IMG/VR virus record: IMGVR_UViG_3300032011_000052
Span: 1-35,261 of that record
DNA: 35,261 nucleotides
Source of the DNA: a virus
Reading direction: 5' to 3' (one strand)
The notes beneath the pieces are model-generated. The model saw only the letters and a list, made by a program, of their open reading frames with translations. It did not search any database and was not told the DNA's origin. This document shows positions 13,380 through 33,877 of this stretch, piece after piece. Every line of letters starts with the position of its first letter. The stretch's first letter is position 1. A program made the position numbers and the translations under genes.

Positions 13380-16300
13380 TTATCTTTTGGGTAATTGACT
13401 ATAAATTGGAACTAGGCTAGTCGCATTAAAATCACCTTTGGCCAAATCTTCAAACCTTTCCACACTAGGCCCTAATAGAGGAGTCATAAAAGAGTCTCCC
13501 CAAAGGTTGTTTTGCCTCATTTGAGCAAGCATTGTCCAGGGGCCCAATACACCAGAACGATCAAACACTTCAAACCAATAAGTACCCCAATCCATATCTC
13601 CTACTTTAGAAGGAACAGGCTCTATAAAAGGAAGCCCCGCAGCTAAAAGATATTTTGTTCTTTCTCTAAATTCCCAACCCAACATAGTTAAAGGTAAAAC
13701 AGTAGTGGCAAACAACATTAAAGGAGGAACCATTGCTCCTAATGTACCTGTTTCTCGTTTTCTAGAATAAGCTTCTCTTGCAACTCCACCTACAATATTT
13801 TTACCGTACGCGTAGAAAAAGGCTTTAAGTTGCCAAATTAAAGCATACCTAGGATCAGATGCCCAATAAGGACGCTCCGCTGCGTTCGGTCTAATCACAG
13901 ACTCTTCAACAAATCTACCCAAAGCGTCACGTACCTTACGCCCATCTTGCCCCGAGAAGCTATAGTCATTTGCTTCCCATCTTTTAGCTTCCTGCCAAGT
14001 AAGCCCATCAAGCTCAGCCAGATATCGAATAGATCTCTGGTTGCCTTGTTTTGCTAACTCTGAATGCCGCATTATAAACTGCTTACCCATAGAAGCAGCA
14101 AACTGTCGCATAAACCGAGTATATCCTTCTGTTAACGTCCACTTAAAGAATTTATCTGACCATTGTCTAGGAGTGTCAAGCATCCAATCTGCATCTACAC
14201 TATGGATATACATATTGTCCATAGCTTCTCGAGTAGCAACTCCAATCTCTTCTGCCATACGTGCCGCTTCTTGTGGGTTATTCCACATGTCTCGCCCAGT
14301 ACGAACTGCCGTCATTAAAGCTTTAAACTCTTTAGACCTAAGTACTGGTCCAGCAAGGTCAGGGAAAGAGGCGAACACAGCAAAAGCGAGCAAAGTTGAA
14401 ATATTTAAGAACAACCCCCAACTGTTAATTTTTCTAAGGGCAGAACTCATGTCTACATCGTATTTGCCTAGTGTGTTTTTAACCGCAGTTCTTGCCATTC
14501 TTCTTTCAGCTGGGTCTTCTACCATCTCAATTAAAGCAGAAGCTCGTTTCCAGCCTCCTCTTTCTTCCCATTCTTTTTTCTTTATTGTATTTCCAATGTA
14601 CCTATCTACCGTAATGTCTGGGCCTTCCAAGAGTCCGGCTTTACGTAATTCTTGAGTAGGAATAAAAGAAAAGATTTTACTTCTGTGTGGAAGTAAACCA
14701 ACAGCAAGATCCCTAGCATCTGTAGCAATAGCGTTCGGGTCAGTGTTCGCATGTTCTTCATCAGATAAAGCAAGATCAATAAACGCTTGGTCTGGAGAAG
14801 TTACAAGGTCTGAAACTATTTTGTCTGCAAGCTCTTTGTTAACTTCAAATGTTTCCCAATATTCAATCCTTGGGTCGCCTTCTGGGTTTTCTGGTGTTTT
14901 TGTAAAAGGGTCTATTTCAATGTTTCCTTGTAGGTCTCTCACAACCGTTGAAAAATAACCATCTTTAACAATAAACCCTAAGTCTTCTTGGACTTTATAA
15001 GTTTTTCCATCTTTTCTTGTTATGGTTTTCTTCCCGTCTCGTAAAGCTTCAAAAAGTTGTTTGTTTGTAACCCTATAATCAGGCGATTGAATAAGGCGCC
15101 TGTGCTGAACCCCTTTATTAAATTTAACAATAAGATCAGAAAGAGCTTTACGTAAAGCTGGAGTCTCTGCAATTTCCTCAATGTTAAGCATTCTTGGAAT
15201 AAATTCATTTATAAAACGAACACCGTATTTAGAAAGGTTTTCTTCCCCGTGAAAATATCTAAACAGTTGCCTAATACCAAAAGCTGTTTCTGAAAGTTGC
15301 CCTTTTTCTGTACCAATGTTTGGTACATACGTTGAGTTGTGTCGAAGGTTTTCTGTATCTTGTAAAACTTTTACAAGCTCTGGGTTTTGTATCGTTCCAA
15401 TAACCTGTTGCCTCATAGCAGGATCAAGCTTAGGTAATTTTCTATCTAGCTTTCTTTTACCCCCCAACCGTTTTTGTATAGCTAAAGGGGTTTTAACAGG
15501 AACAAGGTACTGACGTCTATTTGCAGCTCTAACAACTTCTTTTACCCAAACATGATCAAGTCCTTTTTGAGACATTACTTCTGCAGGAGGAATAATTGCA
15601 ACGTTATCTATTATATACTCTCTAGCTTGTGCAAACACCATAGGGGGCTTTTTGCCCTGTTTTTCTAAAGTTTTAGGGTCTGGAACTTTTATTTTTAAGT
15701 TGTTTGCCGTTGCTTCATCTATTACAAAAATAGCTTCCTGGCGTTCTTTCATATACTTAGCTGTCATTTCTGAGGGCACATCTTCCATTACATAGGTTGG
15801 TGTTTTGCTTTCAGCTTCTACAAAAGCCTTCTCTCGTATTTCTTCTACAAACCCTGCAAGTTTTCCATATAGGTCTTTTGAATATATTCTCTTTTTTGTT
15901 TGCCACGTCTGTGAAAAGCCACGTTTGTCATAAGATTGACTAGCGCCATATATCATCTTACGTAAAAGTTCCATAGGCGTGCGAAAACGCGAATGTTCAG
16001 CAGGCATTTCTTCTTTAAATCTTTTTATAGTCGCTTTGTCTTGTCCTAATTTACCTATGAAGTTATCCGTTGGCATAGCCAACCCCATCAGCTTTTTCGG
16101 GAAAGATTTAGCGTTTCCTTTTAAATAACGCATAAGGCTAGAAATCAAACGTGCGTATTCTTTTCTTTGCTTAGGAGGCATTTTCTTAGCCGTATCATCA
16201 ATCATATTCTCGATATGAATTATCTTATCGTCTCCAAGATACCCCGCGTCAACTTTTTGTTTAGCCCCGTCCTTGTACGCCTGTACAACACCGTTTGCCC

Positions 16301-19300
16301 ACTGATCAAACGTCTCTTGTCCAACCGCTGGCTCAGCACTAAACCGTGTTTTAAAAGCAGCGTGCATTTTATTAAAAGCATCGCGTAGTTTGTTAGCTAA
16401 AGCTTTAAGCCAAGAGTCTGCACCATTTTTTGCTTTTAAAGTTTTGTCAAACAAGAATCTTGACGCACGGTCCGAGGCCCACTCTTCAAGTCCATTCTCA
16501 TCAAACCATTGTTTAGGAGCATTTGGTTGTTTCTTTGCTTTTTCAAAAGCTTTTTTCATCATTTTCTTCTGGGCTAGAGTCATGCCTTCCCATTCTTGTC
16601 GCCATAGAATGTGACCAAACTCATGTCCAAGAACAAAAACGTTAAGAATATAATCTTGTGTGAGCGTTTCTTTTTTCCTTTTTGTTCTAAGCATAATAAT
16701 TTTTTTATTTCCCATATGAAGAACTCGTCCTTTATTCGTAGGGGATTCTTCCATTTCTTTTCTGCTCTTTTCAATGTTTATTACATCATTTTTACTTAGC
16801 TTAGCGTTTTTGGATAAGTTCTCTCTTTGGTCAACTACAATAATTTCTACGTTCGGATCTATCTTAAAAGCATTTCTTGCTAGTTTCGCCATTTGAATAG
16901 GGATTGTTCTTGCGCTTCTTCCTGCTGCACTAATAGGAGAGTCATCAAAATACTTTTGAACACTTGGAGAGAAGAAAGTATTAGTAGCTACTTCTTGTTC
17001 TTGTATCTGCGCCTGCATTTCTTCATAAGCAGCATACTCTTCTGCCGGTGTCTGCTGTTGTTTAGCCGGAGCTGGGGCTGGGGCTGGGGCTGGGGCTGGG
17101 GCTGTAGGGGCAGCTTTTACTTCTTGGCCAACTGATTTTTTATAAAGGTCTTCTATTGCCTGTCGACCAGCCTCGTTTATGCTTCGAGTACCTATTCCAG
17201 CAAAAGACGGCGTCAAGGTTGGTGTTTCTGTAAGTTCTTCTAGTTGTGGCATCATGCCTTCTCGTAGCATTGGTTCACCAGGCCCATCGCTCTCGAAAGT
17301 AGTTTGCAGTTTGTACCACTTTTTAACATCCTGAACAAAAACATAAACTGGCTTACTGTCTCCTTCGTTGTAGCCTTCTCTTGTTTTTTCCCCAATACCA
17401 AACTCTGTTGGAAATATAGAAGAAGGATCAAACGTATTAAGCGCCATTTGTATAGCCCACCCAGTACCGCCACCTTGTTTTTTAAAATACATGGCCGTTT
17501 CACCTAGGTTAGGATTTGCGGCGAATATTTTATCGGGGTCTGCGTTAAGCCCTTCAACAATTGCAAAAACAGCATCAGAGTTTTTTATCTGAAACCAGTT
17601 TCTATGTATAAGCGAAACCGTGCTTGGGTTTGTTGGTGCGTTCTTCCCTAAACCTCTAGCAGCTTCTTCAACAGCAGGTTTTGCTTCTTTCTTTTGTTCT
17701 TCTGTTAATAAAGTATTTCCTCGTGGTGGTTTTCTTCCTCCTTTCATCCAATAGTGTTTAACGTTTTGTTCTTGCAATCCGTAGCGTTTCCCAATCATTT
17801 CAAACTGAGTGTCTGCTCCTGCCGCACCGCCTGAATTAAGAACGGCTGTCTGTATATTAAAAGCTCCAGGAGCAGTAGGTTCGGGGGCAGTGGGGGCAGA
17901 GCTTAATTCATCCCTAACTTCCATTAAGAGCCTAGGAAAAGCTTCTCTCCAATGTCCAGTTTCTGGTATGTGCGTAATCCTTTGGTTTCCAGTATCTAAT
18001 AAAAGTTTTAAAGCTTCTGGGTTTTGTTCAAAAGAAGCTTTCATTACTTTTTTCATTACTTCTTCACTTTTTGTTTTATTACGAAGGGCGGGAGAAACCG
18101 CTTTTCTAGGGTCTGCTTTCTGCCATTTTTTATTTACATAAGTAGCATTATCAAAAACACCATTCTTATTTGTTTGATAAGCATGTTCTACGCTTCTATA
18201 AGATCGACCTTCATACTCAAAAGGTCTAACTGCGAAATTGCTTAGTTCTTTATTTTCTCCTCTTCCATAGTAAACATTAATAGAAGCAGTAGGTTCGGGG
18301 GCAGTGGGGGTAGATCTTAAAGCTTCTACTTTACTGTTTAAATAAGCAAAAGTTTTAGGGGCTGTTTCTTTTAGTCTAGCTCGCCCTGTGCCAAGCCCGT
18401 CTTTTGGTATAACTATAGTTTTTCCTTTTGGGATTTTATCAAAAGCTTCATCTATAGCTTTTATGTTAGAGTCATATTCTGCATCTGTAAAAAAAGCACT
18501 CTTTATTATAGAAGGCAATTTTTTAGTAGGGATACCAACCGCATTAGGTTCATCTCTAATAATAGCTTGTCCCCCTTTGCCTCGGCCTACGAGATTATCT
18601 CCAAAAAGATAAACTTTGTCTGGATTATTTTTTAGTGTAGAAACAGAAAGACGAGAAATTGTTTCTACAGCTCCAGGAGCAGTAGGTTTAGTAGCAGCAG
18701 GGATCTTACTGCTTGCAACATGTCTAAAAGTTACACTTACACGGTTTTCGGCAGACGCTCCAACGGCATGTTTTTTCTCTGTTTGAAACTTGCCATCTGG
18801 CATAACATAAATATCACCGTTGTTAATAACAAAAGAGTTTTCTTGTTTTCTTGTTTTTTTATCTGTTATGGTAATACGAGCAGAGCCACCTAAACTTAGG
18901 GTTGCAACTGCGCCAATTGTTCTATCCTTCCTGACAAAAATATTTTCATCGTCACTATGTGCTCCAATTTTTTTCCCTGGAGGAAAACTATTAGCTAAAA
19001 CACTGTTAAAATAATTTTTTGGATAGCCTAATATGCTTTCTAAAGCTCTAGCTAATTCAGAATAACGCTCTGGCATCGGCTGAGCTTTATGTTTTGCGCC
19101 TGTATATTCATAATCTACTGGCCCAAACCAAACTACAGACCTACCTGCAGTTAGTTTAGATAAAGGGTTGTTAGAAATTTCATCAATAATTTCATCAATA
19201 TTAACCATTCCAGCCCAAGAGTTTTTTAGAAGCGGCATTAACTCATCAATTTGAATGTTGTTTTGTGGGTCATTAAGAAAATCTTCTCTAAATATTTGTA

Positions 19301-22300
19301 TTCCTTCTGGCGGTCTTACTTCTGAAGTGCTTGTAGTTTCTCTTTGTTGCTGTTGCAACTCTTTAAGGCTTTTGGGTTTAGCTTTTTCCTTTGATTCGAT
19401 AGCTAGATTACGTTTGAGCTCTTCATTTCTACGCCTTGTAATATCAATAGAAAGTTTTTCTTCTTTTTCTTTTTCAACTTTCCGTTCTTTTTCAAACTGT
19501 TTAAATGTTTGTTCGCTTTTATAGTCTTTTATAATACCTTCTATTCTTTCTGCACTACTTAGCCCCAGTCCTCCATAATCCCTTATTAAAAGGTTTCTAT
19601 TAAGTTCGGCATCTGAATATGAACCTTGTTCTACTTCATATATGTTGTCCCTTCTTTCATCCATAGCTTCTTCTATAGCAAAGTCATCTAAAGAGATATC
19701 TCCATAGTCTGCTCTTTCAGGGTCTGCATCTAAGCCAAAAAGATAGTCTCTGCTTTCTGCAAGTCTTTCATCAATTTCTTCTTGGAGAAACTGCTCATCT
19801 CGACGTTGGTCTGGTTTGGTCCACATGTCTTCGTATACTGAAAGTTGATATTCAATCGTACTAAGTCTTTTTAAATCTCTTTCAATAAGTGGCTCTGTGT
19901 ATAAAGTTTGATTTTTCCCTAAAGAAAATTCTTCTGGGGCTTGGGCATCTTCTTGTCTTATTTGATCAATTTCCGAATTACTAAAAAAAACTGTTGGGGC
20001 AATAGGAGCACCCGGTTGATTTGCTCTAAATCTAAAAAAGTTGGCGAGTTGATCTTGTCTCTTTTTAATGTTTGACCGTTCTTTTAATAGTAAAAAATCA
20101 GGTACATACGCAGAAACAATATTTTTAAGTTTAATAGTTTTGATAGATGTATCTTTTACATCGTACTCTGCTCTGGCGGTTCGTTGTTCGGGGTCTTTAA
20201 TGTTTAAATAATTTTTTTCGGCTTGTTCAAGTTCATATTGGTTTGTGCCCTTTAAAGCAGACTCATAAATAACAAGGTTATCTATTCTGTTTCTTTTTGT
20301 TTTTTGTTCTTTAGTCTCTTTTCCAACAGCAACGTCTTCTTCAATCATTTTATTAAGAGGGCCAAGGAACGAATCATCAGTAATTTTTGTATACTTCTCA
20401 GCTGCTATACGATCAATTCTTCCCTCTTTCCACGTGTATTGATGCACAGCTGCTTCAATGTCATATCCTAGTCTGTCTAATTCAACCATAGCTGTCATAA
20501 AGCCATCTGCCATATGTACTTCAAATCTTTTCTTTTCGCTCGTGTATGTAGACTCATACATAGACGCTTGACCACGAAGTTTATTAATTTGAGCGCCACG
20601 AAGTGTGAGTCGAGACATACTAATAGGTACTCTTTTTTCTTTTGCAACAGCAGGTAAAACACCATCAGATACTTCTCCTGCTGCATTTTTTCTTGCAACT
20701 AAAAGCCAACCAGAACCCCCTGTGTTGTCATAGTTGGGGTTTTCATTTGACTTTCTTTTATCTGTGGCTATAGCTTCTCTTATACCCGCATTTATTAGCT
20801 GCGCGCTTGTAACAAAATTAATTTCGTCAAGAGTAGCAGTTTCAAAAATTTTAAATTGCCCATAACCATCGTTATCAGGGTTTGTTTCAAGGTGTACTTC
20901 AAAAAGAGAGCCTGGTCTTTCCTGAACTAACTCATCTATCTTATTCATAAGAGCATCAGAGAAAAGAGTATACAAAGGCTGGCCTATAAGTTCATTTCCA
21001 AATGTTTCTCTAGGTCCTGTTGTAGTTGTTCCTGCATAGACATCTTGTGCAAAAGTTTGAATGGGGTCTTTTACGCCGTATGGTTTAGCTCCTTCGGGTA
21101 AAACAGAATTGACCGCGGCTAAATCTTCTTCAGTTATGGGTCTGTTTCTATCGGTCTGCGTCGTAGGTACTCTTTCACCCGTGTAACGACCAAGAACCGA
21201 AGCAAAAACTTTATTTTTTGGTTGGCCTATATGGCTTTCATTAATAATGTTTTCGATGTTTTTATTTTTTGCGTTTAGTTTATTAAACTCTTGTAGATAC
21301 TCTCCAAGCGTATCAATATTTTTTAGTTCTGTTTGCAGCCTTGCCACTTCGGTTTGTCGATCCGCTAACGTAAATTGCCACTTGGTAAGGTCTTCTCTAG
21401 TAAATATTGGCCCACGCTCTGACAAATTTCTATCGAACTCGCCTCTATTTCTTTGTATGTTTGGATTAGCTGTAGGTTTAAAAATAAGAGCATAGTCTTT
21501 AAACCATTTGTCGTTTCCTCTTTTTTGAAGCTCTGAAACTACGTTTGTTGTACTGTTTACATCGTCTGGTAAAAACTGATAACCCAAAGGCTGCCCATAT
21601 TCATCTACAGGAATGTTTGCTTTTGTTGTCTGTGTTTCTTTTTTTGCGTCTTCATTAAAATTTGTTACTTCATAAGCTTCAATTATTTGTTCATCTGTTA
21701 TGCCTTCTTGCTTTTTAAAAATTTCTAAATATTCTTCTGTAGTCATTGGCTTTAACGTGCCATCAGCGTTTCTTCCTTCTGCTGTATCTTGAAGAAATCT
21801 AAATTCAGATTCGGGTGTCCCTACATCGGGAACTTGATTTTTTAGTTGGGTTTCGGCTTCTTTTATGTTGTTTTCGTTGTGTGGTATTCCAGTAACAATT
21901 TTTCCCTCTTTGTCCGCAACAGCCATAACGTAGGGTTCGGTTATTCCAATTCTTTCTTTTAAAGAAATGTTTTCTTCGTCTTCTCCCACAATTCCTTTAA
22001 AAAGATCTGTGTTTTGTGCAGCATCAACAAACTGCTTTCTAGCCATTCTATTAATATTACCTAAAGAACCCCCTGCAGCCCCTAACCCAAATCCACCTAC
22101 AACGCCAGCAAAAGCAGCTTGTACAGCATCTAGTTTTGCTTGGTTTACTGAATAGTCAGGGTCGGTTCTAAGTTTTTGTTTAATGTTAAGCCCTTCTTGT
22201 GCTGTTTCTGCAGCTCCTTCACTAAGCGCCCCCATTATTCCCAAACCAAACATAGTATCTTGGGCTAAAGCTTTCTTAAACTGGCCTTTGCTTCTGTTTA

Positions 22301-23147
22301 CCATTCTAGTAAAAGCAGTAACAACCGCAGATTCACCTGCGACACCAATAGCAGCATAACCAAGGCCTGTTCCAAGAGCATACGTTCGTGCGTACCTATC
22401 ACGTTGTCCCAAGTCTTCAAACTCCCCGTAAGAAATACCAGAGCCTTGAATAAGTTCTTGAGAAGCTGCTCCTGCTATAAAGCCGGGGTTATATGACCCT
22501 GTAGGAGTTCTACCTTTAAGTACTTCAAACCAAGCTGTTAAAAATCTTTCTTCGTCTGGGTTAACAACTCCCCCTTGCATTTTCTTTTTTGAAACTTGTT
22601 TTGCAGCTTGGCTCATTGCTTGCCTAGTAGCTGTTGCCCCAATACCTGCCCGAGCTAAAGCAAAAGCACCGCCACCTGCAAAAGCAGAAGCAATACTAGC
22701 AATAGCGGAAGGAGTAAATTGCCCTATTGCAGATACAGCTTGTGTAAGAAATCCACCAACGGTTGGCTCATTTAAAAATTCTGTAAAGTCTGGAACAGTT
22801 GCCATAGCTTCAGCTGCTTGGCTTTGAAGTCTTCTTGCTTCTTGTATCTGTTTATCCGCTTTTTCTGTCTCTCCCATAGCGTCATAAAACAAAGAATCAA
22901 AAAGATCTTTGTTTGCTAAAAGATTTTTTACTCCGGCTTCAAAGGCATTTCCAAAAGTACTGCCTCGCTCCCGCCGTAGCTCGGGAGGCAAATACGTATC
23001 TCTAGGGTTAACCTCTAAACGGTCTTCAAATAAGGGAATATCTGGTCGCGCTCTACTAGGAGAAGGCTTAAACAAAAGGTCTTCAAGCGTTGTCTCTTGT
23101 TGTTGAGGGGCAAACAATTCGTCAAATAATTTAGTATCTTTAGCCAC
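13380..23147 (-). CDS. Giant multidomain ejected virion protein (polyvalent protein)
   Basis: The protein has 3,255 residues. The start is GTG at 23147, one base after the previous stop, with a weak GAGAG site. Order: 1-390, Ala/Gly-rich segments that could insert in membrane (about 127-172, 255-270, 342-362); 390-1280, unrecognised, partly coiled coil and very charged at the end; 1280-1480 AlkB-type dioxygenase; 1497-1610 macro-like domain; 1623-1748 NADAR; 1764-2003 SLOG-type; 2011-2026 Ala-Pro linker; about 2100-2240 HEFGH zincin; then a long helical region with hydrophobic stretches at 2912-2937 and 3137-3158. It is last in a block placed like the T7 core proteins, so ejection into the host with the DNA is likely. 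Similar fusions of counter-defence enzymes are known as polyvalent proteins. No phage RNA-polymerase or transglycosylase motif was found. The enzyme domains are confidently seen; their targets are inferred. Confidence 0.9.
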   Translation of the reverse strand: MAKDTKLFDELFAPQQQETTLEDLLFKPSPSRARPDIPLFEDRLEVNPRDTYLPPELRRERGSTFGNAFEAGVKNLLANKDLFDSLFYDAMGETEKADKQIQEARRLQSQAAEAMATVPDFTEFLNEPTVGGFLTQAVSAIGQFTPSAIASIASAFAGGGAFALARAGIGATATRQAMSQAAKQVSKKKMQGGVVNPDEERFLTAWFEVLKGRTPTGSYNPGFIAGAASQELIQGSGISYGEFEDLGQRDRYARTYALGTGLGYAAIGVAGESAVVTAFTRMVNRSKGQFKKALAQDTMFGLGIMGALSEGAAETAQEGLNIKQKLRTDPDYSVNQAKLDAVQAAFAGVVGGFGLGAAGGSLGNINRMARKQFVDAAQNTDLFKGIVGEDEENISLKERIGITEPYVMAVADKEGKIVTGIPHNENNIKEAETQLKNQVPDVGTPESEFRFLQDTAEGRNADGTLKPMTTEEYLEIFKKQEGITDEQIIEAYEVTNFNEDAKKETQTTKANIPVDEYGQPLGYQFLPDDVNSTTNVVSELQKRGNDKWFKDYALIFKPTANPNIQRNRGEFDRNLSERGPIFTREDLTKWQFTLADRQTEVARLQTELKNIDTLGEYLQEFNKLNAKNKNIENIINESHIGQPKNKVFASVLGRYTGERVPTTQTDRNRPITEEDLAAVNSVLPEGAKPYGVKDPIQTFAQDVYAGTTTTGPRETFGNELIGQPLYTLFSDALMNKIDELVQERPGSLFEVHLETNPDNDGYGQFKIFETATLDEINFVTSAQLINAGIREAIATDKRKSNENPNYDNTGGSGWLLVARKNAAGEVSDGVLPAVAKEKRVPISMSRLTLRGAQINKLRGQASMYESTYTSEKKRFEVHMADGFMTAMVELDRLGYDIEAAVHQYTWKEGRIDRIAAEKYTKITDDSFLGPLNKMIEEDVAVGKETKEQKTKRNRIDNLVIYESALKGTNQYELEQAEKNYLNIKDPEQRTARAEYDVKDTSIKTIKLKNIVSAYVPDFLLLKERSNIKKRQDQLANFFRFRANQPGAPIAPTVFFSNSEIDQIRQEDAQAPEEFSLGKNQTLYTEPLIERDLKRLSTIEYQLSVYEDMWTKPDQRRDEQFLQEEIDERLAESRDYLFGLDADPERADYGDISLDDFAIEEAMDERRDNIYEVEQGSYSDAELNRNLLIRDYGGLGLSSAERIEGIIKDYKSEQTFKQFEKERKVEKEKEEKLSIDITRRRNEELKRNLAIESKEKAKPKSLKELQQQQRETTSTSEVRPPEGIQIFREDFLNDPQNNIQIDELMPLLKNSWAGMVNIDEIIDEISNNPLSKLTAGRSVVWFGPVDYEYTGAKHKAQPMPERYSELARALESILGYPKNYFNSVLANSFPPGKKIGAHSDDENIFVRKDRTIGAVATLSLGGSARITITDKKTRKQENSFVINNGDIYVMPDGKFQTEKKHAVGASAENRVSVTFRHVASSKIPAATKPTAPGAVETISRLSVSTLKNNPDKVYLFGDNLVGRGKGGQAIIRDEPNAVGIPTKKLPSIIKSAFFTDAEYDSNIKAIDEAFDKIPKGKTIVIPKDGLGTGRARLKETAPKTFAYLNSKVEALRSTPTAPEPTASINVYYGRGENKELSNFAVRPFEYEGRSYRSVEHAYQTNKNGVFDNATYVNKKWQKADPRKAVSPALRNKTKSEEVMKKVMKASFEQNPEALKLLLDTGNQRITHIPETGHWREAFPRLLMEVRDELSSAPTAPEPTAPGAFNIQTAVLNSGGAAGADTQFEMIGKRYGLQEQNVKHYWMKGGRKPPRGNTLLTEEQKKEAKPAVEEAARGLGKNAPTNPSTVSLIHRNWFQIKNSDAVFAIVEGLNADPDKIFAANPNLGETAMYFKKQGGGTGWAIQMALNTFDPSSIFPTEFGIGEKTREGYNEGDSKPVYVFVQDVKKWYKLQTTFESDGPGEPMLREGMMPQLEELTETPTLTPSFAGIGTRSINEAGRQAIEDLYKKSVGQEVKAAPTAPAPAPAPAPAPAKQQQTPAEEYAAYEEMQAQIQEQEVATNTFFSPSVQKYFDDSPISAAGRSARTIPIQMAKLARNAFKIDPNVEIIVVDQRENLSKNAKLSKNDVINIEKSRKEMEESPTNKGRVLHMGNKKIIMLRTKRKKETLTQDYILNVFVLGHEFGHILWRQEWEGMTLAQKKMMKKAFEKAKKQPNAPKQWFDENGLEEWASDRASRFLFDKTLKAKNGADSWLKALANKLRDAFNKMHAAFKTRFSAEPAVGQETFDQWANGVVQAYKDGAKQKVDAGYLGDDKIIHIENMIDDTAKKMPPKQRKEYARLISSLMRYLKGNAKSFPKKLMGLAMPTDNFIGKLGQDKATIKRFKEEMPAEHSRFRTPMELLRKMIYGASQSYDKRGFSQTWQTKKRIYSKDLYGKLAGFVEEIREKAFVEAESKTPTYVMEDVPSEMTAKYMKERQEAIFVIDEATANNLKIKVPDPKTLEKQGKKPPMVFAQAREYIIDNVAIIPPAEVMSQKGLDHVWVKEVVRAANRRQYLVPVKTPLAIQKRLGGKRKLDRKLPKLDPAMRQQVIGTIQNPELVKVLQDTENLRHNSTYVPNIGTEKGQLSETAFGIRQLFRYFHGEENLSKYGVRFINEFIPRMLNIEEIAETPALRKALSDLIVKFNKGVQHRRLIQSPDYRVTNKQLFEALRDGKKTITRKDGKTYKVQEDLGFIVKDGYFSTVVRDLQGNIEIDPFTKTPENPEGDPRIEYWETFEVNKELADKIVSDLVTSPDQAFIDLALSDEEHANTDPNAIATDARDLAVGLLPHRSKIFSFIPTQELRKAGLLEGPDITVDRYIGNTIKKKEWEERGGWKRASALIEMVEDPAERRMARTAVKNTLGKYDVDMSSALRKINSWGLFLNISTLLAFAVFASFPDLAGPVLRSKEFKALMTAVRTGRDMWNNPQEAARMAEEIGVATREAMDNMYIHSVDADWMLDTPRQWSDKFFKWTLTEGYTRFMRQFAASMGKQFIMRHSELAKQGNQRSIRYLAELDGLTWQEAKRWEANDYSFSGQDGRKVRDALGRFVEESVIRPNAAERPYWASDPRYALIWQLKAFFYAYGKNIVGGVAREAYSRKRETGTLGAMVPPLMLFATTVLPLTMLGWEFRERTKYLLAAGLPFIEPVPSKVGDMDWGTYWFEVFDRSGVLGPWTMLAQMRQNNLWGDSFMTPLLGPSVERFEDLAKGDFNATSLVPIYSQLPKR
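16428..16850 (-). other. Domain: zincin metallopeptidase (residues ~2100-2240 of giant)
   Basis: VFVLGHEFGHILW carries the HExxH zinc site (His2175-Glu2176-His2179). A downstream helix GLEEWASDRASRF (Glu2221/Glu2222, Asp2226) probably supplies the third ligand, as in gluzincin-like peptidases. The preceding strand NVEIIVVDQ and the KIIMLRT strand fit the fold. Possible roles are cleavage of a host protein, self-processing of the giant polypeptide, or peptidoglycan-crosslink cleavage; the sequence does not decide. Confidence 0.8.
17071..17100 (-). repeat. Five perfect gctggg hexamers (Ala-Pro linker; G-rich on + strand)
   Basis: Five tandem gctggg units (+ strand) encode an (AP)n linker at about residues 2011-2026 between the SLOG and zincin modules. 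On the + strand this gives consecutive GGGG runs separated by CT, a strong G-quadruplex-type motif. Short perfect units imply copy-number instability by slippage; each unit is 6 nt, so frame is kept. Confidence 0.9.
17139..17858 (-). other. Domain: SLOG/DprA-like Rossmannoid with rearranged motifs (residues ~1764-2003 of giant)
   Basis: LNSGGAAGADTQFE (Gly1773-Asp1779) is the SGGAxGAD nucleotide-binding loop of SLOG/YspA-type domains; IKNSDAVFAIVEGL, GGGTGWAIQMALN and KPVYVFVQD follow in the expected order. FAGIGTRSINEAG (Gly1984-Arg1988), which normally is the first strand-loop of the fold, comes last. The domain is therefore either circularly permuted or belongs to a permuted subfamily. SLOG domains bind nucleotides, including NAD-derived signals. 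Confidence 0.65.
17862..17904 (-). repeat. Linker repeat copy 1 (PTAPEPTAPG-encoding), after NADAR
   Basis: The + strand sequence agctccaggagcagtaggtt (17862-17881) recurs exactly at 18669-18688. Its continuation from 17871 matches 18285-18318 at 32 of 34 bases. It encodes the Pro-Thr-Ala linker between the NADAR and SLOG modules. Confidence 0.9.
17904..18281 (-). other. Domain: NADAR / YbiA-like (residues 1623-1748 of giant)
   Basis: The domain begins INVYYGRGENKELSNF, continues FEYEGRSYRSVEHAYQTNK (Glu1654-His1655) and ends HWREAFPRLLMEVRDEL (Trp1733, Arg1745). The LSNF, SVEHAYQ and LM.VR elements define NADAR, a family of N-glycosidases acting on ADP-ribose-linked substrates; members have been shown to remove ADP-ribose from guanine bases modified by DarT-type toxins. 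The C-terminal part lacks the usual WG...GkN.LG string and has W..AFPRLL instead, a variant form. Confidence 0.85.
18285..18318 (-). repeat. Linker repeat copy 2, between macro-like domain and NADAR
   Basis: The first 26 bases are identical to 17871-17896, with two mismatches in the next eight. Offset to copy 1 is 414 nt (138 codons, in frame). It encodes STPTAPEPTA. Confidence 0.9.
18318..18659 (-). other. Domain: macro-like / DUF7831-type (residues ~1497-1610 of giant)
   Basis: The segment KVYLFGDNLVGRGKGGQA (GDN at 1516-1518), then NAVGIPTKK, and IPKDGLGTGRARLKETAP near its end form the pattern of a small phage/plasmid domain I know as DUF7831. The layout (FGDN, G-rich loop with GGQA, GLGTG loop) resembles macro-domain ADP-ribose binding loops. 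Ligand and activity are not established. Similar Pro-Thr-Ala linkers border it on both sides. Confidence 0.65.
18669..18688 (-). repeat. Linker repeat copy 3, between AlkB and macro-like domain
   Basis: Twenty bases are identical to 17862-17881. The offset is 807 nt (269 codons, in frame). It encodes the KPTAPGAVE linker. Confidence 0.88.
18708..19310 (-). other. Domain: AlkB-type 2OG-Fe(II) dioxygenase (residues ~1280-1480 of giant)
   Basis: The signature is complete: His1397-x-Asp1399 in IGAHSDDE, distal His1460 in KKHAVG, and Arg1469-x-Ser-x-Thr-x-Arg1475 (RVSVTFR), equivalent to the RxNxTxR of AlkB with Asn replaced by Ser. Upstream elements VVWFGPVDYEYTG and NSVLANSFPPG match the substrate-lid region and core strand of the family. 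AlkB proteins use 2-oxoglutarate, O2 and Fe(II) to remove alkyl groups from DNA or RNA bases; some phage versions may act on other modified nucleic acids. The module follows a charged coiled-coil linker. Confidence 0.85.
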
Positions 23148-23148
23148 A

Positions 23149-26085
23149 TTAATTATCTCTCAAGGGTGAGGTATAAGTAAAACCCGGACGCTTTAAAGTT
23201 CCAAGGGCGCCAGTTACAGTTGGTTCAGCCCCTTGGCTAACTGTACCATATGCTTTTCTCATTTCTTCATACCCCCTAGACGCTTTCCATATTTTATATC
23301 TTTGAAAGTCTTTTTCCGGAATCATTTTTTGTAAAGCTGCTTCTGCCATCTCAGGGTCTCCAGAGTAACTATTAAAAATCATAGACATTAAAGGAGTAGA
23401 CGCAGTCGTTTCCTTCCCGTCACTATTAAACACAGCCACTCTTGGGAAATTATTCCCGCCAATATCAGCTCCACCGTCTTTTGCTAAACCCTCTCCTATA
23501 AGAAGCCTAATGTCATCTACTCTAGGGTTAACTGTATCCCCTTGAAAGTGTGGGTTTCCTCCTAAAGCTTGAAATATGTTATCTCTTATGGCATCAGATT
23601 TAAACATTGGTTCATTACCAAACCAACCAAAAGGAGCAACCCGCCCCAACCAATTTTTTTGTCCAGCTATAACCATTTCTCCTAAATGCGCTTGTAAAGT
23701 TGCATCCTGAAGTGCTTGTCTGCCAAACCTATAGTTAGGGTTTGTTCCGGTTGGGTCAGCTGTTTTTATTTCATAGGCCAAAGTTCTAATTGCTGTTCTT
23801 GCGTCAGTAGGACTTAAAACCCCCACTACTGGTGTTACTTTGCTGCCAAGCCACGACGCTTCGGTCTCTCCTGTATTATATTCAAATCCGCTTCCTGTAG
23901 GGCGGGCGCCTATAAGGTTCTGTACCATTTCTAAATTCTGCTTATAAACGTCAGAAGGTGCGGGTGCTGTTCCTGTGCCCGTCGGAGTTGACATAAACCC
24001 TGTACGAACCGCTGACTCCATTCTTTCAATTGCTGCGTCTGGATCGCTTGTAAGCCCTGCAATGGCTCTTATTGCCACTGCTCGATTATAAGGATTAACC
24101 TTTTCAAGTTCTTTAATCATAGCGTCAAAAGTTTCAATACCTTTGCCCGCAAAATAGTCTCTCATTATATCTTTATCATTGGTTTCCGCAGCTGCTTGTG
24201 CTCTTTGTACAAGGTTAGTACTTAAAATATTACTTCTAAGTTCTGCTTGACCAGAAGCTGTTTCTTCATCCTCATAAGATTCGATAACATCTCCTGTAAT
24301 AGGGTCTTTAATTCTGCCACCAAAATTATCTTGTATTTGTTGTTCAGCGTAATCTTCTAACTGAGATTGAGGAATTGGCATTCCTTTTTCATCTATAGAT
24401 GGCATGTTTATCCACCTTCCGTTTGACAATTGGAAAGTTACTGTTTTTTCAGAGTATTGCTCTCCTGTATTTGAATTTTCCCAAATAGGTCTACCGTACC
24501 GAGTTTTCCTGCCTGTGTCAGTTGGTGTACCTCCAGCTGAACCAGACCCACCTATTGAAGCTCCTTCCGGTATTACCTCTTCTTCTAAGTCTAAAAGCTT
24601 AATAACTTCTTCTCTGGTTCCAATGTAATTGTCGATGTCTTCGGGGTTGCTGTGTTTGGCAATAATTTCTTCTGTTGTTGCCTCTCCTTCAGGGTCTAAT
24701 AGCTCTTCTTCAGTAAACCTGAAATCTGGCCCACGATCATCTACTGTGCCTGTTGGTTGTGGTACAGGATCAAGATAATAAGATCCTGTTTTTATCGCGG
24801 CTTCTATTTGATCTGGCTTCATTACGCCCCATTCTAAAACCGTGCCTACAATATCATTTGCAGTAAACCCTTCGTTCAATTGTCCCGTTTCAAGATTTAT
24901 TGGATTGCCTAACCTTTCATTCTCTGCCACTAGTTTTTTATACATAGGAGAAGTTTTTTTAAGTATTTGGTTTGTTTCCCTAACCTTTGAGCCATCTCCT
25001 TTAAAACCATCAGAAAAAGTTGTTTTCATAACGCGGTCTTGTCTTACAGCCTCTTTAAGAAGTTGGTCTGCTTCTTTGTCAGTCAACCCAGGAGGCTTAG
25101 TTCTTGTAAGATTTCCCGAAGTTTGAAGTTTCCCCGTTTCTGTTAGAGTGTATTCTTGTTGCACTTCTTCAGCTGCTTGTTGCAATTCTTCAGCTGCTTC
25201 TGTAATTGTAGGAATATTATCACCACGCATAACGCTTTCTGAGCCGCCAAGAGCAGTCCAAAGGTCTTCGGCTTCGTCAAGAAACTGAAAAAAAGCGTCT
25301 GACCCTCGTAAATTTGGATCATTTGCCAAATCAGCTATCATTTCTAAAAACTTTATTTTGTCATTTCCTGCCTGTTCTTTAATTTTTTTAACTCGCCTTA
25401 TATTAGAAAGCTGTAAGTCTCTCTGATTTTTTAACCTCTCTTTTTCGCCACCCCCACCACCTCTTCTTAGAAAACCTCCTTCTGCTGCTGCATCAGCTAA
25501 TGCTGTTCTTTCCGCATCAGGTTGTCCTCTCATTAAATTATACAAAGCCGAATTAAAAGCTATATTCATTGTAGTACCATTAAAGCTGGCCGGTTTTGCG
25601 CCTTCTGTCGCGCTCGAACCTTTTGAACGATCTCCACGAGTAAAATAAACAGGTTTTCCTTCTGGATTTACACCGCCGATTAAATACTCTACAGTACCAT
25701 CCGCCTTGGTGTTAGAAATAAGAGTGCCGTTTCCTCCAGAAAGATCTATTTTTTCGTAACCGACAATTTTGTCATTTTCTGTAACTGGATATTCCATTAG
25801 CCCGTCATGAAATGATAGAAGTTCTAACATAATTTGGTTGTGTTCGCCATTTGCATTAGCTGTAGGGTTTATTTGCCACAAACCGCCACCATCTAAATCT
25901 TCTACAATAAGATCTCTCATAATTAAAGAATCCCAAAGCTCCTCGTTGCGTTCTTTTTTTTGATTCATACGCGCGTTTTCAAGTTCTATTTGTCGCGCTT
26001 CTCGTAGTTGACGAGCCTGTATAATATTAGAACCTATAGCTCTACCAGAAGGAAATTGAACTCCGCCATATTTGCTAGCTGTCAT
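23149..26085 (-). CDS. Large internal/ejected virion protein
   Basis: This 978-residue protein has a start overlapping the previous stop (ATGA). It is mostly hydrophilic and helical: a charged N-terminal coil (QLREARQIELENARMNQKKERN), a Gly-rich hinge GGGGGEKERLKNQ near 215, a coiled stretch AAEELQQAAEEVQQE near 310, and a central element TVTFQLSNGRWINMPSID followed by an acidic region that I have seen in other podoviral internal proteins. No catalytic motif is evident. It lies directly upstream of the giant gene in a four-gene block comparable in position and size gradient to T7 internal core genes 14-15-16, so it probably helps form the ejection conduit. The role is inferred from context. 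Confidence 0.7.
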   Translation of the reverse strand: MTASKYGGVQFPSGRAIGSNIIQARQLREARQIELENARMNQKKERNEELWDSLIMRDLIVEDLDGGGLWQINPTANANGEHNQIMLELLSFHDGLMEYPVTENDKIVGYEKIDLSGGNGTLISNTKADGTVEYLIGGVNPEGKPVYFTRGDRSKGSSATEGAKPASFNGTTMNIAFNSALYNLMRGQPDAERTALADAAAEGGFLRRGGGGGEKERLKNQRDLQLSNIRRVKKIKEQAGNDKIKFLEMIADLANDPNLRGSDAFFQFLDEAEDLWTALGGSESVMRGDNIPTITEAAEELQQAAEEVQQEYTLTETGKLQTSGNLTRTKPPGLTDKEADQLLKEAVRQDRVMKTTFSDGFKGDGSKVRETNQILKKTSPMYKKLVAENERLGNPINLETGQLNEGFTANDIVGTVLEWGVMKPDQIEAAIKTGSYYLDPVPQPTGTVDDRGPDFRFTEEELLDPEGEATTEEIIAKHSNPEDIDNYIGTREEVIKLLDLEEEVIPEGASIGGSGSAGGTPTDTGRKTRYGRPIWENSNTGEQYSEKTVTFQLSNGRWINMPSIDEKGMPIPQSQLEDYAEQQIQDNFGGRIKDPITGDVIESYEDEETASGQAELRSNILSTNLVQRAQAAAETNDKDIMRDYFAGKGIETFDAMIKELEKVNPYNRAVAIRAIAGLTSDPDAAIERMESAVRTGFMSTPTGTGTAPAPSDVYKQNLEMVQNLIGARPTGSGFEYNTGETEASWLGSKVTPVVGVLSPTDARTAIRTLAYEIKTADPTGTNPNYRFGRQALQDATLQAHLGEMVIAGQKNWLGRVAPFGWFGNEPMFKSDAIRDNIFQALGGNPHFQGDTVNPRVDDIRLLIGEGLAKDGGADIGGNNFPRVAVFNSDGKETTASTPLMSMIFNSYSGDPEMAEAALQKMIPEKDFQRYKIWKASRGYEEMRKAYGTVSQGAEPTVTGALGTLKRPGFTYTSPLRDN

Positions 26086-26795
26086 GTTAAATCCCCGAGC
26101 ATTCCAAAAAGAGTGTTATAGACGCCTGTTTTCCAACTTGTTCGTGCATTGTCATACTCTGCTTTTCTTTTATACCCTTCCGCACCACCAGCAGTAACTG
26201 CAGCAAGTCCTTGTAGATATTCTTCATTTTCAATACCGTATAGCTGCATTTGTAGCTGCCGTTTTAAATCTTGTTCTTGGATTCTTCCGGTAGTAAGGTT
26301 ACCAGCCAAAGCAGAAGCTTCTCCACGTTGAAAACCTCTTTCCATCTCTTGTTGTTCTGCGGCAGTTAAATTTTGTCCATACCGCGTCAAATTACGCTTA
26401 TTTGTGCCTTTGCTAATTTCATAAGTTTTAGCTACGTCTTTACGTGTATCTTTAGTTAAATCAAGGTTTTCTATTCTATCTTTAAGATATTGTTGTGTAG
26501 GCCTCGTCCTGCTTGTATAATTATTCCACTCTTCTCTAAGCGTACTTTCAGCTATTCCAATAGCCCCATCTGCCGTCATGTTCATAGGGGTTCCAGTTCT
26601 TTGGTTTCCATACTGTTTTTTATAGTCATCATATGTTGAAGAAGAACCTAGGTTGTAAGAAGATTTTTGAGTTGTTTTAGGGGTTCGGGGTGTACTCGAA
26701 CGGTGTGGTTTTGATTTTCTATAAGACGTGTTTCCTGTAGAGAGCATAGAAAATTCTCCAGGTTCTTGTTGTCTTAATTGATCTAAAATACCCAT
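26082..26795 (-). CDS. Internal virion protein candidate, basic and helical
   Basis: This 237-residue protein has a basic, Ser/Thr/Pro-rich disordered first 60 residues (RKSKPHRSSTPRTPKTTQKSS) followed by helices (TAAEQQEMERGFQRGEASALAG, RIQEQDLKRQLQMQLYGIE) and a Gly/Ala patch (GLAAVTAGGAEGYKR). No known domain is recognised. It is tightly linked: 2 nt after the previous gene and overlapping the next by 4 nt (ATGA). The ribosome site is weak, so translation may rely on coupling. The place in the block suggests a small core or ejection protein that may contact DNA through its basic N-terminus. Confidence 0.65.
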   Translation of the reverse strand: MGILDQLRQQEPGEFSMLSTGNTSYRKSKPHRSSTPRTPKTTQKSSYNLGSSSTYDDYKKQYGNQRTGTPMNMTADGAIGIAESTLREEWNNYTSRTRPTQQYLKDRIENLDLTKDTRKDVAKTYEISKGTNKRNLTRYGQNLTAAEQQEMERGFQRGEASALAGNLTTGRIQEQDLKRQLQMQLYGIENEEYLQGLAAVTAGGAEGYKRKAEYDNARTSWKTGVYNTLFGMLGDLT

Positions 26796-29289: not shown

Positions 29290-30435
29290 TTAGTATGCCA
29301 CGTCTAAGCGGATAACACCAAAGTCTTCAACAGCACCGTTGTGGTCACTGTTGTACTTAGGCTTCCTAAAGCCAAGGATCTTACCAATTGAGATACCATT
29401 TTGGTTCCCGTAGTCGAAAGAATCTTCAACTATTTCAGGGAGACCGATATCAGCCATAGCAAGAGCTTGTGCTCCACAGAATAAGCAAGCTGCGCCATTA
29501 ATATCAGCATCAGCACCCCACTTATATCCGGCAGAACCAGCATTAGATGATGTTCCAGTAGTTGCGCCAGATGTGTTAAACACATGTCGGAACTCATGGA
29601 TCATAACGCCATCAACCATAAGGCTTGAAGAACCTGAGAACAATTCGTTACTCGGTCCTCTTACTCCAGCATTCCTGACGTTAGCTAGGAAGTCTGAATC
29701 AAGTTTAAGGTCAGCCATAACTTGAGGAGTCACAAATAAGTGATAAACCTCGTCGCCGCCTGAACCTCTCAAACCACGGATATAGTTATCCTTAGCATAG
29801 GCTTTAAGAGCAACGATAGTTTTGTACTGAATGGTGTCAGCAGCTGCTACTAAGCTAGTATTACCTGCTACAAGACCATCAGATACATCCCATCTTCTAT
29901 GCCTGTTGGTTGTTGGTGATGAAACGTCACTTGCAAAAGCAAGGTCACCTAGGTTCTGACCAGTGTTCATAACTGATCTTAGGGCACCGTTGTTTTTGTT
30001 AGTGTACGCTATTCCAGATAGCGTCATAAACGCTACTTGGTCTATACGATCTGCCATTGCATACGCAAGGGCGTCTCTTGAATGCTCACGAAAGTTGACA
30101 ACTGATTTTTGATCAGCAAGACGTCCAGCAAGACGGTTTGCGAATCTCATTTGATCAAGTTGTACAACAATATCGTATGCTCTCAATGACTCTTCATTAC
30201 CTTCGAGAGTGTAGTCTCCAATGATACCATCTCCGGTCATGTCAGCTAGAAGGGTAATTACCGCTCTTGCTCCTTTCTCAGATTTGGTAAGTTCAGAAAT
30301 AGACTGAACCATAGCATTAGGGCCACTGCCCGCGAATTGGTTAATGAAGGACATATTCCGAGCAACACGCCAGAAATCACGTGACCAAATAGTGAGCTGT
30401 TCACTGGTCAGTGATGCAAAGTTAGTATTTGCCAT
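29290..30435 (-). CDS. Major capsid protein, N4-gp56 family
   Basis: The protein has 381 residues from ATG 30435, chosen because GGAG lies 7 nt upstream and MANTNFASLTSEQ matches a typical start; an in-frame start 11 codons earlier has no ribosome site. LTIWSRDFWRVARNMSFINQFAG, GARAVITLLADMTGDGIIGDYTLEGNEE, VVQLDQMRFANR and an LSGIAY element form the signature of the N4-gp56-type HK97-fold capsid family. It follows scaffold and portal in standard order and is followed at once by a terminator. It forms the icosahedral shell. Confidence 0.9.
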   Translation of the reverse strand: MANTNFASLTSEQLTIWSRDFWRVARNMSFINQFAGSGPNAMVQSISELTKSEKGARAVITLLADMTGDGIIGDYTLEGNEESLRAYDIVVQLDQMRFANRLAGRLADQKSVVNFREHSRDALAYAMADRIDQVAFMTLSGIAYTNKNNGALRSVMNTGQNLGDLAFASDVSSPTTNRHRRWDVSDGLVAGNTSLVAAADTIQYKTIVALKAYAKDNYIRGLRGSGGDEVYHLFVTPQVMADLKLDSDFLANVRNAGVRGPSNELFSGSSSLMVDGVMIHEFRHVFNTSGATTGTSSNAGSAGYKWGADADINGAACLFCGAQALAMADIGLPEIVEDSFDYGNQNGISIGKILGFRKPKYNSDHNGAVEDFGVIRLDVAY

Positions 30436-30473
30436 TTGAATACTCCAAATTAATAGATTTAAAACCAATCGAC

Positions 30474-31771: not shown

Positions 31772-33877
31772 TTAGTTACCTCCTGGTTTCATAGCCATTG
31801 CTGCTAGTTTTGTAGCTGCTTGTGTTTCAGATTGTAGTTGACGTTGGTTATTTGTCAAACCTGCAAGTTTTTCACGTACTGCAAGTTCTTCTCTCTTCAT
31901 CTGTATCTTACTTTGAATTTCTGCCATTTTTAATTGTGGGTCCATTTTATTCTCTTCCGCTTTAGACATATTAAGTTCTGTTTCAGACTGCATGCTTGCA
32001 ATTTCTGCTTCTAACTTTTGAAGTTCTAGTTCTATACTTTGAAGTTGTGCTTCCTGCTGATACTGCATAATTGCCATTTCTTCTTCGCCTGGCGGTTCTG
32101 TACCTTGCATTTGTCGTATTCTTTGTGCTATTTCGCCTTTACGAGAAAGGTGTGAAAAATCAACTACAATATCGTCTGGTACGGGAACTCCAACCTGTCG
32201 AAGTTGTAGTGCCTCTGCAAATTGCATTTCATCGAAATTATCTCTAGCTGGGCTTGTAGCAACAACTACATCATACTCACCAAGCGTTAAGTCATTTACA
32301 ATAATGCCTGAAGGGGTAGGCTCATTTAATACAATTTCTTCGCTCGCTTTCATTGGGTCTGCTTCATCTGTAATCTGAATAACGCGAGCTTCCGTATAAT
32401 AAGATTGAACAAGGTTTAAAACTTTTTCCGCTAGGTACTGCCGTGTTTTAGCTAGGTTATCCAAAGGCACTTGAATCATCATTGCGCCTCTGCTTTGTTT
32501 CGCTTGGATCGCTACCCCTGAAACTTCTGGGCTATCTGTACCCAACATTGAGTCACTAATACCACTAATCTGTTTTATGTTAATGGCTGCTTTTTGGCTG
32601 ATACGATCTAAACCTGTAGGAATCTGGTTTGGTGGAATTTTAGCTGGAGGGTTTGAACCACGATTAAACTCAAGTACGAGACCTGTTTCAGCTCCGTGTT
32701 CCTCTAAGTCATCTGCATCCATACCGCTCAAAGAACCAGATTCTACAATCCACCCACTGTTGGCTGTTGTATTAACAATATGTAGTTCTTGAGAAGAGAT
32801 CTTGTTCAACTGTTCTTGAGGGGATATCAGATTGCGAACCATACCAAAAGGCCGACCTCTTCTCCAGAAAGGAAAGTAAGGAACTAATGTAAAATGATTA
32901 TATGGAGACCAACCGTCGTGTAGTACTGTTAAGTCAGCTGTTACTGTCCAACGTACTTTACGAACCAATTTCTCAATAATATCTAGGTCATACTCATCGG
33001 CAAACTGTTCGCGTTTTTTCTTTGTCCAATTATAAGGCACTTCCCGCATATCGCCCGTAAGCCTATCTATATAGAACATGCATTCTTTAAGTCTATAATA
33101 CTGGCGCTCTATTACTCGAACCGAGCGCAGCGCGCGATTTTCTTCTGGGTTAGTTGTATTACCCTGTTGATATTCGACACCGCTATATGTATCTCCGTAT
33201 CGAACTTCCTCAAACTCAATTGAGTCTGTTCCCAAAACAGAGCCTTGTTCCACAGTAATACGTAGTTTGTCTGCTTGCTTCTGCCCATAGGTCTCTTCTA
33301 TCTCATCAAGACTCATCCACCGCGTTTCAAAAATCTCGTTCCACGTTCTAGGGTCATAGTCTTTTGCGTCTGGGTCAATAAGGATGTCCAACGGATCTTT
33401 GGCAGTTATACGAACTTCGCCTTGTATGTGGTCGTCAAAATCTATACGAACATCAAACCACCCTCGATCTTGAATCAGCCCATCCGAAAATACTTGTGCT
33501 TCTACCCAATCCAACTTGTTGTTATCAGAAATCTGTAGAAATAGTTTAGTAAGCGTGTCGGCTACCTCTTGTTGCCCTTTTCCTCGTGGCTTAAACGTAA
33601 CGTCCATTCTACGTGTACTTTGTTCCCCTATAACTGTGTTGATAGTGGGTAATATGGTATTAATAGTAAGAGCCGGCCTACCTTGGTCATCTAATGTAGA
33701 TAAATCAGCCGCGTCCCACTGTTCTCCTCGATAAAAAGCATCGCATCTTTTTGCGACCGCTATGTAATCTTGATGCCCATTGTCACGGGCTCGCGTGTAT
33801 GCGTCCCACTGGTCACGTGCAAGTTGATGTTCTTTTGCCTTACTTAACCTTTTAGGTTTGTCGGATCTATATGCCAT
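31772..33877 (-). CDS. Portal protein, P22-like
   Basis: This 701-residue protein has an N-terminus with ARDQWDAYTRARDNGHQDYIAVAKRCDAFYRGEQWD, then RPALTINTILPTINTVIGEQ and DPLDILIDPDAKDYDPRTWNEIFETRWMS, all in the order seen in P22-type podoviral portals. ISGISDSMLGTDSPEVSGVAIQAKQSRG is the conserved core helix region. The C-terminal about 100 residues are a Gln/Glu/Lys coiled coil (LQSIELELQKLEAEIASMQSETE), the likely barrel. Twelve subunits form the DNA-entry vertex and receive the terminase. The start overlaps the terminase stop (TAATG). Confidence 0.9.
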   Translation of the reverse strand: MAYRSDKPKRLSKAKEHQLARDQWDAYTRARDNGHQDYIAVAKRCDAFYRGEQWDAADLSTLDDQGRPALTINTILPTINTVIGEQSTRRMDVTFKPRGKGQQEVADTLTKLFLQISDNNKLDWVEAQVFSDGLIQDRGWFDVRIDFDDHIQGEVRITAKDPLDILIDPDAKDYDPRTWNEIFETRWMSLDEIEETYGQKQADKLRITVEQGSVLGTDSIEFEEVRYGDTYSGVEYQQGNTTNPEENRALRSVRVIERQYYRLKECMFYIDRLTGDMREVPYNWTKKKREQFADEYDLDIIEKLVRKVRWTVTADLTVLHDGWSPYNHFTLVPYFPFWRRGRPFGMVRNLISPQEQLNKISSQELHIVNTTANSGWIVESGSLSGMDADDLEEHGAETGLVLEFNRGSNPPAKIPPNQIPTGLDRISQKAAINIKQISGISDSMLGTDSPEVSGVAIQAKQSRGAMMIQVPLDNLAKTRQYLAEKVLNLVQSYYTEARVIQITDEADPMKASEEIVLNEPTPSGIIVNDLTLGEYDVVVATSPARDNFDEMQFAEALQLRQVGVPVPDDIVVDFSHLSRKGEIAQRIRQMQGTEPPGEEEMAIMQYQQEAQLQSIELELQKLEAEIASMQSETELNMSKAEENKMDPQLKMAEIQSKIQMKREELAVREKLAGLTNNQRQLQSETQAATKLAAMAMKPGGN
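31779..31784 (-). promoter_or_regulatory. Strong Shine-Dalgarno for scaffold, embedded in portal C-terminus
   Basis: A consensus AGGAGG overlaps the codons for the portal's final Pro-Gly-Gly, nine bases before the scaffold ATG. It supports the scaffold start and implies high translation of scaffold relative to portal from one mRNA. Confidence 0.85.

Follow-up and report, generated by a model that had tools for sequence, protein, structure and literature searches.

Polyvalent proteins combine disparate domains in one giant polypeptide, most commonly including a zincin; their genes lie among virion genes, and they are predicted to be injected together with the DNA (Iyer 2017, PMC5512222). The virion RNA polymerase (vRNAP) of N4-type phages, the one giant of such a kind described as ejected, is about 3,500 aa long and consists of an N-terminal part, cargo, an HExxH motif and a helical C-terminal domain (PMC12633501). 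The N4 vRNAP is packaged uncut, and P1 DdrB provides a precedent for cleavage (PMC5512222). Phages also encode NAD/ADP-ribose fusions of Macro, NADAR, SLOG and DUF4326, which are typically standalone, although some are probably packaged, and phage Macro, NADAR and SLOG domains have been proposed to counter ADP-ribose signals (PMC9503650).

We analysed the IMG/VR virus record IMGVR_UViG_3300032011_000052, whose contig of 35,261 nt is called the window here. It encodes a giant protein that resembles polyvalent proteins in joining AlkB, DUF7831, NADAR, SLOG and zincin domains in one polypeptide, and in the location of its gene near those for the large terminase subunit (TerL), portal, major capsid protein (MCP) and adaptor-like proteins, all on one strand. 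It differs from the polyvalent proteins of Iyer 2017 in its content, as the main text of PMC5512222 does not mention AlkB, macro, SLOG or DUF1768/NADAR. With the N4 vRNAP it shares the order of N-terminal part, cargo, HExxH and helical C-terminal region, and the vRNAP of Klebsiella phage Pylas (L006:6058-17517) carries a SLOG domain related to that of the window (tblastn 8e-20); SLOG or DUF7831 also occur in N4-like vRNAPs. Unlike the N4 vRNAP, however, the window giant gave no RNA polymerase family match in Pfam or PHROG. NADAR and SLOG are combined as in the fusions of PMC9503650, but here they lie inside one giant together with AlkB and DUF7831, the latter of which fold searches do not identify as a macro domain. 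The window giant adds to the polyvalent-protein theme (Iyer 2017), with an N4-vRNAP-like layout.

The gene and its surroundings contain the following features:

33877..35259, minus strand: terminase large subunit (family match)
31772..33877, minus strand: P22-like portal (match 9.5e-119)
29290..30468, minus strand: major capsid protein, Phage_capsid_3 (family match)
26082..26795, minus strand: 237-aa neighbour, conserved in sister phages (best 1.6e-18)
23149..26085, minus strand: 978-aa gene directly upstream of the giant (gene context)
13380..23147, minus strand: giant ORF, 3,255 aa, with a GTG start 1 base past the stop of the preceding gene

From its GTG, the minus-strand frame at 13380-23147 runs through 3,255 codons without a stop, and the plus strand has many stops over the same interval; such an open frame is not a product of chance. 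A preliminary description of this DNA had reported an uninterrupted frame at these coordinates, which we confirm, placing it on the minus strand. The start of the giant (VAKDTKLFDEL...) fits the start region of a sister protein (MAKKTFDEIAG...). Gene order on the minus strand runs from terminase, P22-like portal, scaffold-like protein and MCP to two SU10-type adaptor-like proteins, followed by proteins of 208, 237 and 978 aa, the giant, a 124-aa gene and putative fibre/tail genes. The nearest counterparts of the portal are found in Podoviridae sp. ctwe8250, KPP25 and Acidovorax phage AP1, at 39-40% identity. In four of four sisters examined, a gene of 726-905 aa without sequence similarity stands in place of the 978-aa gene. 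The window belongs to a P22-portal-type (KPP25-like) podovirus, in which the giant directly follows the internal-protein block. Six relatives are genome contigs in MAGs of Marinimicrobiota, Gammaproteobacteria, Endozoicomonas and others; judging from its relatives, the phage probably has a marine origin.

Kochitakasuvirus KPP25, phiR18 and Aeromonas phage phiA008 have a P22-like portal and giants with a homologous C-terminal domain, which is annotated as a virion structural protein in KPP25 and phiR18. The giants of phiA008 and phiR18 also share the zincin-type motif with the window giant. These three giants differ from it in cargo: that of phiA008 has an SNase at its N-terminus, and no AlkB, DUF7831 or NADAR was seen in any of them. 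Comparison with relatives divides the window giant into a frame and a variable middle:

21948..22997, minus strand: frame N-terminal Ala/Gly-rich domain, aa ~51-400 (BLAST, column occupancy)
22653..22709, minus strand: hydrophobic segment 1, aa 147-165 (segment scan)
22071..22127, minus strand: hydrophobic segment 2, aa 341-359 (segment scan)
16968..21800, minus strand: variable cargo region, aa ~450-2060 (occupancy mostly 0.05-0.6)
14364..14420, minus strand: hydrophobic segment 3, aa 2910-2928 (segment scan)
13695..13751, minus strand: hydrophobic segment 4, aa 3133-3151 (segment scan)
13383..14600, minus strand: frame C-terminal all-helical domain, aa 2850-3255 (phrog_30152, IMG/VR relatives, AF2)

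The C-terminal domain, whose AF2 model has mostly pLDDT 70-96, matches phrog_30152 (virion structural protein) over aa 2886-3141 (1e-23); the N- and C-terminal frame has no Pfam match, and the C-terminal profile found nothing in the PDB. With the C-terminus or the cargo region as a single-sequence query, scans of viral contigs returned no relatives, but a scan of IMG/VR viral contigs with a C-terminal alignment of the window, phiA008, phiR18 and Roseobacter phage CRP-810 as query found the domain in at least 249 contigs. In the ranked sample from which relatives were judged (80 loci kept of at least 249), the C-terminal domain is present in 80 of 80 loci and the N-terminal Ala/Gly domain in 72 of 80 (BLAST). 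Column occupancy among 65 aligned giants is 0.8-1.0 over aa ~51-400; aa ~2050-2350 and ~2850-3255 are likewise occupied in most of them, and aa ~450-2050 in few. The shortest of these 65 proteins have 1,787 aa; the longest is the window giant (3,255 aa), and its relatives reach up to 3,230 aa, with a variable region of 565-1,946 aa. No cargo was recognised in the minimal members (1,787 aa). The hydrophobic segments, which had been described as lying near both ends, were found there. All of the five relatives checked have the C-terminal pair; only some have the N-terminal pair at that threshold.

At the sequence level, the frame is conserved and the cargo is swapped among relatives. NADAR occurs with SLOG in G003 and with YAcAr-SLOG in G027, and lies downstream of the zincin in L072, L074 and L075; a lysozyme was found in 4/37 and cpYpsA-SLOG in 3/37 sister giants. 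Together with the N-terminal SNase of phiA008, these positions indicate that most additions are made in the middle of the protein, with others at the N-terminus or behind the zincin. The gene adjoining the CRP-810 homologue contains an ART-PolyVal domain. In L175:5622-13223 (sister phage G003), two SLOG matches enclose the NADAR.

Five modules follow one another from the variable region into the zincin region of the window giant:

18717..19160, minus strand: AlkB-type 2OG-Fe(II) dioxygenase, aa ~1330-1477 (Pfam, NCBIfam, PDB chains, motifs)
18336..18650, minus strand: DUF7831 domain, aa 1500-1604 (Pfam 1e-36)
17931..18266, minus strand: NADAR domain, phage-type, aa ~1628-1739 (Pfam, phrog_1017, YbiA 2b3w)
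17406..17837, minus strand: SLOG / DprA-like domain, aa ~1771-1914 (phrog_768, tblastn)
16404..16868, minus strand: zincin-like metallopeptidase, aa ~2094-2248 (HEFGH 2175-2179, third ligand Glu2222)

The preliminary description had named five modules, with motifs for some of them. The motif positions are exact (HSD 1397, RVSVTFR 1469, FGDNL 1515, SNF 1636, EHAYQ 1654, NSGGAAGAD of SLOG 1771, HEFGH 2175), and AlkB, NADAR, SLOG and zincin stand as sequence assignments; the macro-like label does not.

AlkB enzymes take alkyl adducts off bases. The AlkB-type assignment holds on family and motif evidence: Pfam 2OG-FeII_Oxy_2 matches aa 1343-1474 (3.8e-14), supplemented by NCBIfam alkb (2.9e-5), AlkB PDB chains (E ~0.01) and the PHROG for alkylated-DNA repair (4e-6). 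The iron triad H1397, D1399 and H1460, the last placed by the start of RVSVTFR at 1469, is present together with the 2OG-motif arginines R1469 and R1475; the RxNxTxR motif reads RVSVTFR, with Ser for Asn.

The NADAR domain matches Pfam at aa 1631-1725 (8e-8; 33.1 bits, slightly below the cut-off of 35.1), phrog_1017 (7e-12) and E. coli YbiA 2b3w (3e-7), and has the YbiA-type SNF and EHxYQ motifs. In the alignment it shows T-H at the E-H of YbiA, so that the catalytic Glu of the last strand in the YbiA subfamily is absent. Since phage NADARs have been reported with His replacing this Glu (PMC11125620, PMC11543638), the domain looks phage-type. NADAR removes ADP-ribose from guanine, as established by biochemistry that includes a phage NADAR (PMC11125620, PMC11543638), and for some NADARs, hydrolysis of guanine-ADPr in vitro is not accompanied by protection of cells against DarT1 (PMC11125620). 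The SLOG domain matches phrog_768 (DprA-like) at aa 1762-1902 (6e-5) and DprA-like phage proteins by tblastn (9e-15), and contains the SGGAxGAD motif; a PDB search with it gave no match.

The supposed macro-like FGDN/GGQA domain is Pfam DUF7831. Its AlphaFold model is confident (pLDDT 96, 64 homologues) and matched no PDB structure with E under 0.001; dual-specificity phosphatases and rhodaneses, at a TM of about 0.3, head the weak matches. As the 50 best PDB matches include no macro domain, and viral macro proteins match the model only at E 0.4-2.4, the label is unsupported, though a very remote link between DUF7831 and macro domains may exist. The viral models that it matched belong to other DUF7831 proteins or, in a few cases, to giant phage proteins; Tupanvirus, Hyperionvirus and crAss-like phages are among the sources. 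DUF7831 is also present in the protist viruses Tupanvirus, Hyperionvirus and Yasminevirus (A0A6N1NMG5, A0A3G5ADK8, A0A5K0U977) at 41-44% identity.

A scan for DUF7831 yielded 346 relatives, and among the best 80 of these 346, 65 are part of ORFs 600 aa or longer and 15 are standalone. Judged by these occurrences, DUF7831 is a recurrent cargo. The giants that contain it reach 3,000-4,900 aa and carry cpYpsA-SLOG, AlkB, NADAR, and N4-like vRNAP or internal-virion-protein families; a P22-like portal was found in 5 of 11 such records examined. Two of them, G042 and G045, have a distant version of the C-terminal domain of the window giant (2e-49 and 3e-60); G045 (L274:1815-13925; 4,037 aa) has two HExGH motifs, at about residues 1483 and 3122. 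Free-standing DUF7831 genes adjoin RtcB/tadA, a tRNA splicing ligase or a CCA-adding enzyme, and another adjoins a DNA ligase and a molybdenum-carrier-like gene. In L201:2-3232, a nested DUF7831 splits the NADAR match into two halves.

The zincin region shows a small sheet, an HExxH helix and a downstream Glu helix in sequence and model, as expected of a zincin metallopeptidase. HExGH is present in 56/65 giants, with an invariant downstream Glu in 52, and the AF2 model of aa 2060-3255 places strands, the HEFGH helix and the Glu helix in succession (zincin local pLDDT about 60-85), the order of elements described for polyvalent zincins (PMC5512222). Foldseek with the zincin/C-terminal model gave no significant match, and its non-significant top matches, mostly membrane proteins, were not counted as evidence. 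Nor was homology of this region to an N4-type vRNAP found, as hhalign against the C-terminal region of the Pylas vRNAP was not significant; since neither search succeeded, the ejection analogy is one of layout. Some relatives have a degenerate zincin or none at all, so cleavage by it, though plausible, is not obligatory. In G027 (L174:2999-12688; 3,230 aa), HELGE replaces HExGH, and this peptidase is thus probably dead.

The domain combination had been put forward as possibly new. Among the sequences fetched, the full set of AlkB, DUF7831, NADAR, SLOG and zincin occurs only in the window, and among the 65 aligned giants local profiles found AlkB and DUF7831 only there; the order AlkB-DUF7831-NADAR, however, recurs in other giants. 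AlkB directly precedes DUF7831 in G033, G034 and G035, with NADAR next in two of the three, and no homology of their frames to that of the window giant was detectable. The full cargo was not found again in another contig, as records nearly identical to the window may be masked; the match to L088 covers no more than the first 461 aa of the giant, at 100%.

BLAST connects the window AlkB with the free-standing AlkB of the phage's sisters (E ~1e-15), and gave no match to those of G033 and G035. The AlkB of the other giants thus appears to belong to a different subfamily, which suggests, at the level of sequence comparison, that the AlkB-DUF7831 fusion was assembled independently; a single inherited AlkB-DUF7831-NADAR cassette is not favoured. 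The free-standing AlkB genes of the sisters lie on the strand opposite the portal (L091:4276-4875, L143:4874-5407, L167:5069-5599; reverse-complement coordinates of the locus). A suspected AlkB beside DUF7831 in Sinorhizobium phage Phosso was discarded, the neighbouring genes there not being AlkB.

The best-supported reading of our analysis is that of a virion protein ejected together with the DNA, to which the late-gene location, the virion-annotated homologues, the sister lysozyme, the hydrophobic ends and the N4 vRNAP layout point. The initial proposal of a polyvalent-type giant in a virion block agrees with the virion-structural PHROG match and the KPP25 and phiR18 annotations, and is also backed by the sister lysozyme and by SLOG and DUF7831 in N4-like vRNAPs. 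We consider it probable, if far from assured, that the protein is packed and ejected as a frame with cargo, cut by its zincin, and that the cargo targets nucleotide signals and the genome as it enters. The helical N- and C-terminal domains with their hydrophobic segments would pack the giant among the capsid internal proteins, and at DNA ejection the frame would move the protein, as small folded domains on a string, into the host envelope or through it, for which the N4 vRNAP offers a precedent. The zincin, which lies before the C-terminal domain, could then cut the chain, either after ejection or already at virion maturation, and free the cargo. Within the cell, NADAR would strip ADP-ribose from guanine, a mark made by DarT1-type toxins, and AlkB would strip alkyl adducts from the bases of the incoming genome. 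SLOG may bind or cleave ADP-ribose or nucleotide derivatives (cf. PMC9503650), and DUF7831 would be an unassigned enzyme that accompanies NADAR, SLOG, AlkB and RNA-repair genes. In this counter-defence role, the unusually large enzyme set would reverse damage or marks that defence systems of the host put on nucleic acids and nucleotides. More tentatively, and here we see a possibility rather than an expectation, the ejected AlkB, NADAR and DUF7831 could form a kit that erases base alkylation and base ADP-ribosylation from the entering genome ahead of any phage gene expression and has been assembled repeatedly on unrelated frames, with DUF7831 as a new de-modification enzyme acting on nucleic acid or ADP-ribose.

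The conservation of the frame alongside variable cargo, and the existence of 1,787-aa members without recognised cargo, would also fit a frame that serves as an ejection conduit, like T7 gp16 or N4 gp51/52, with a middle that is a tolerant insertion site under little selection for a function at entry. The hydrophobic segments agree with such a role, and the sister lysozyme fits envelope crossing. We nevertheless regard this explanation as rather unlikely, because the catalytic motifs of the cargo are intact, its domains recur in coherent combinations for NAD/ADP-ribose and nucleic acids, and AlkB has apparently been placed beside DUF7831 more than once. The free-standing AlkB of the sister phages, encoded on the other strand, implies that this enzyme is useful inside the cell too, so that the modules might work inside the producing cell while particles are assembled, where they would repair packaged DNA or process NAD metabolites, and never be delivered. 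This strikes us as improbable, as it leaves the fusion to a virion-type frame, the co-occurrence with lysozyme and the presence of DUF7831 and SLOG in vRNAP relatives unexplained.

Delivery could alternatively serve an attack on the host, in which the zincin and SLOG or DUF7831 would act on host proteins or NAD pools during takeover. Polyvalent zincins have been proposed as possible effectors as well (PMC5512222), and the ART-PolyVal domain next to the distant relative's gene would suit this role; but no transferase or toxin domain was recognised in the window giant, and NADAR and AlkB are removal and repair enzymes, which makes such an attack very improbable. Giant phage proteins with odd domains, so far a vague class, become a testable system: a recognisable frame is present in hundreds of mostly marine phages, and the sequence beyond it is a readable inventory of the cargo that each phage may bring into the cell. 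DUF7831 is singled out as a recurrent cargo beside NADAR, SLOG and AlkB that has no fold match, and base de-modification activity is predicted as the genome enters. If the giant is delivered, its cargo regions would be a place to look for new counter-defence enzymes.

Elsewhere in the window, two consecutive fibre-like genes (6796-8814 and 8807-11503) have C-termini, reading SDRRLKKNI... and SDEREKTEI..., that by eye resemble S74-type intramolecular chaperone domains. A 342-aa protein encoded at 11958-12986 consists of repeated Ser/Ala-rich units (SFSFSDS, SVTMSEAL).
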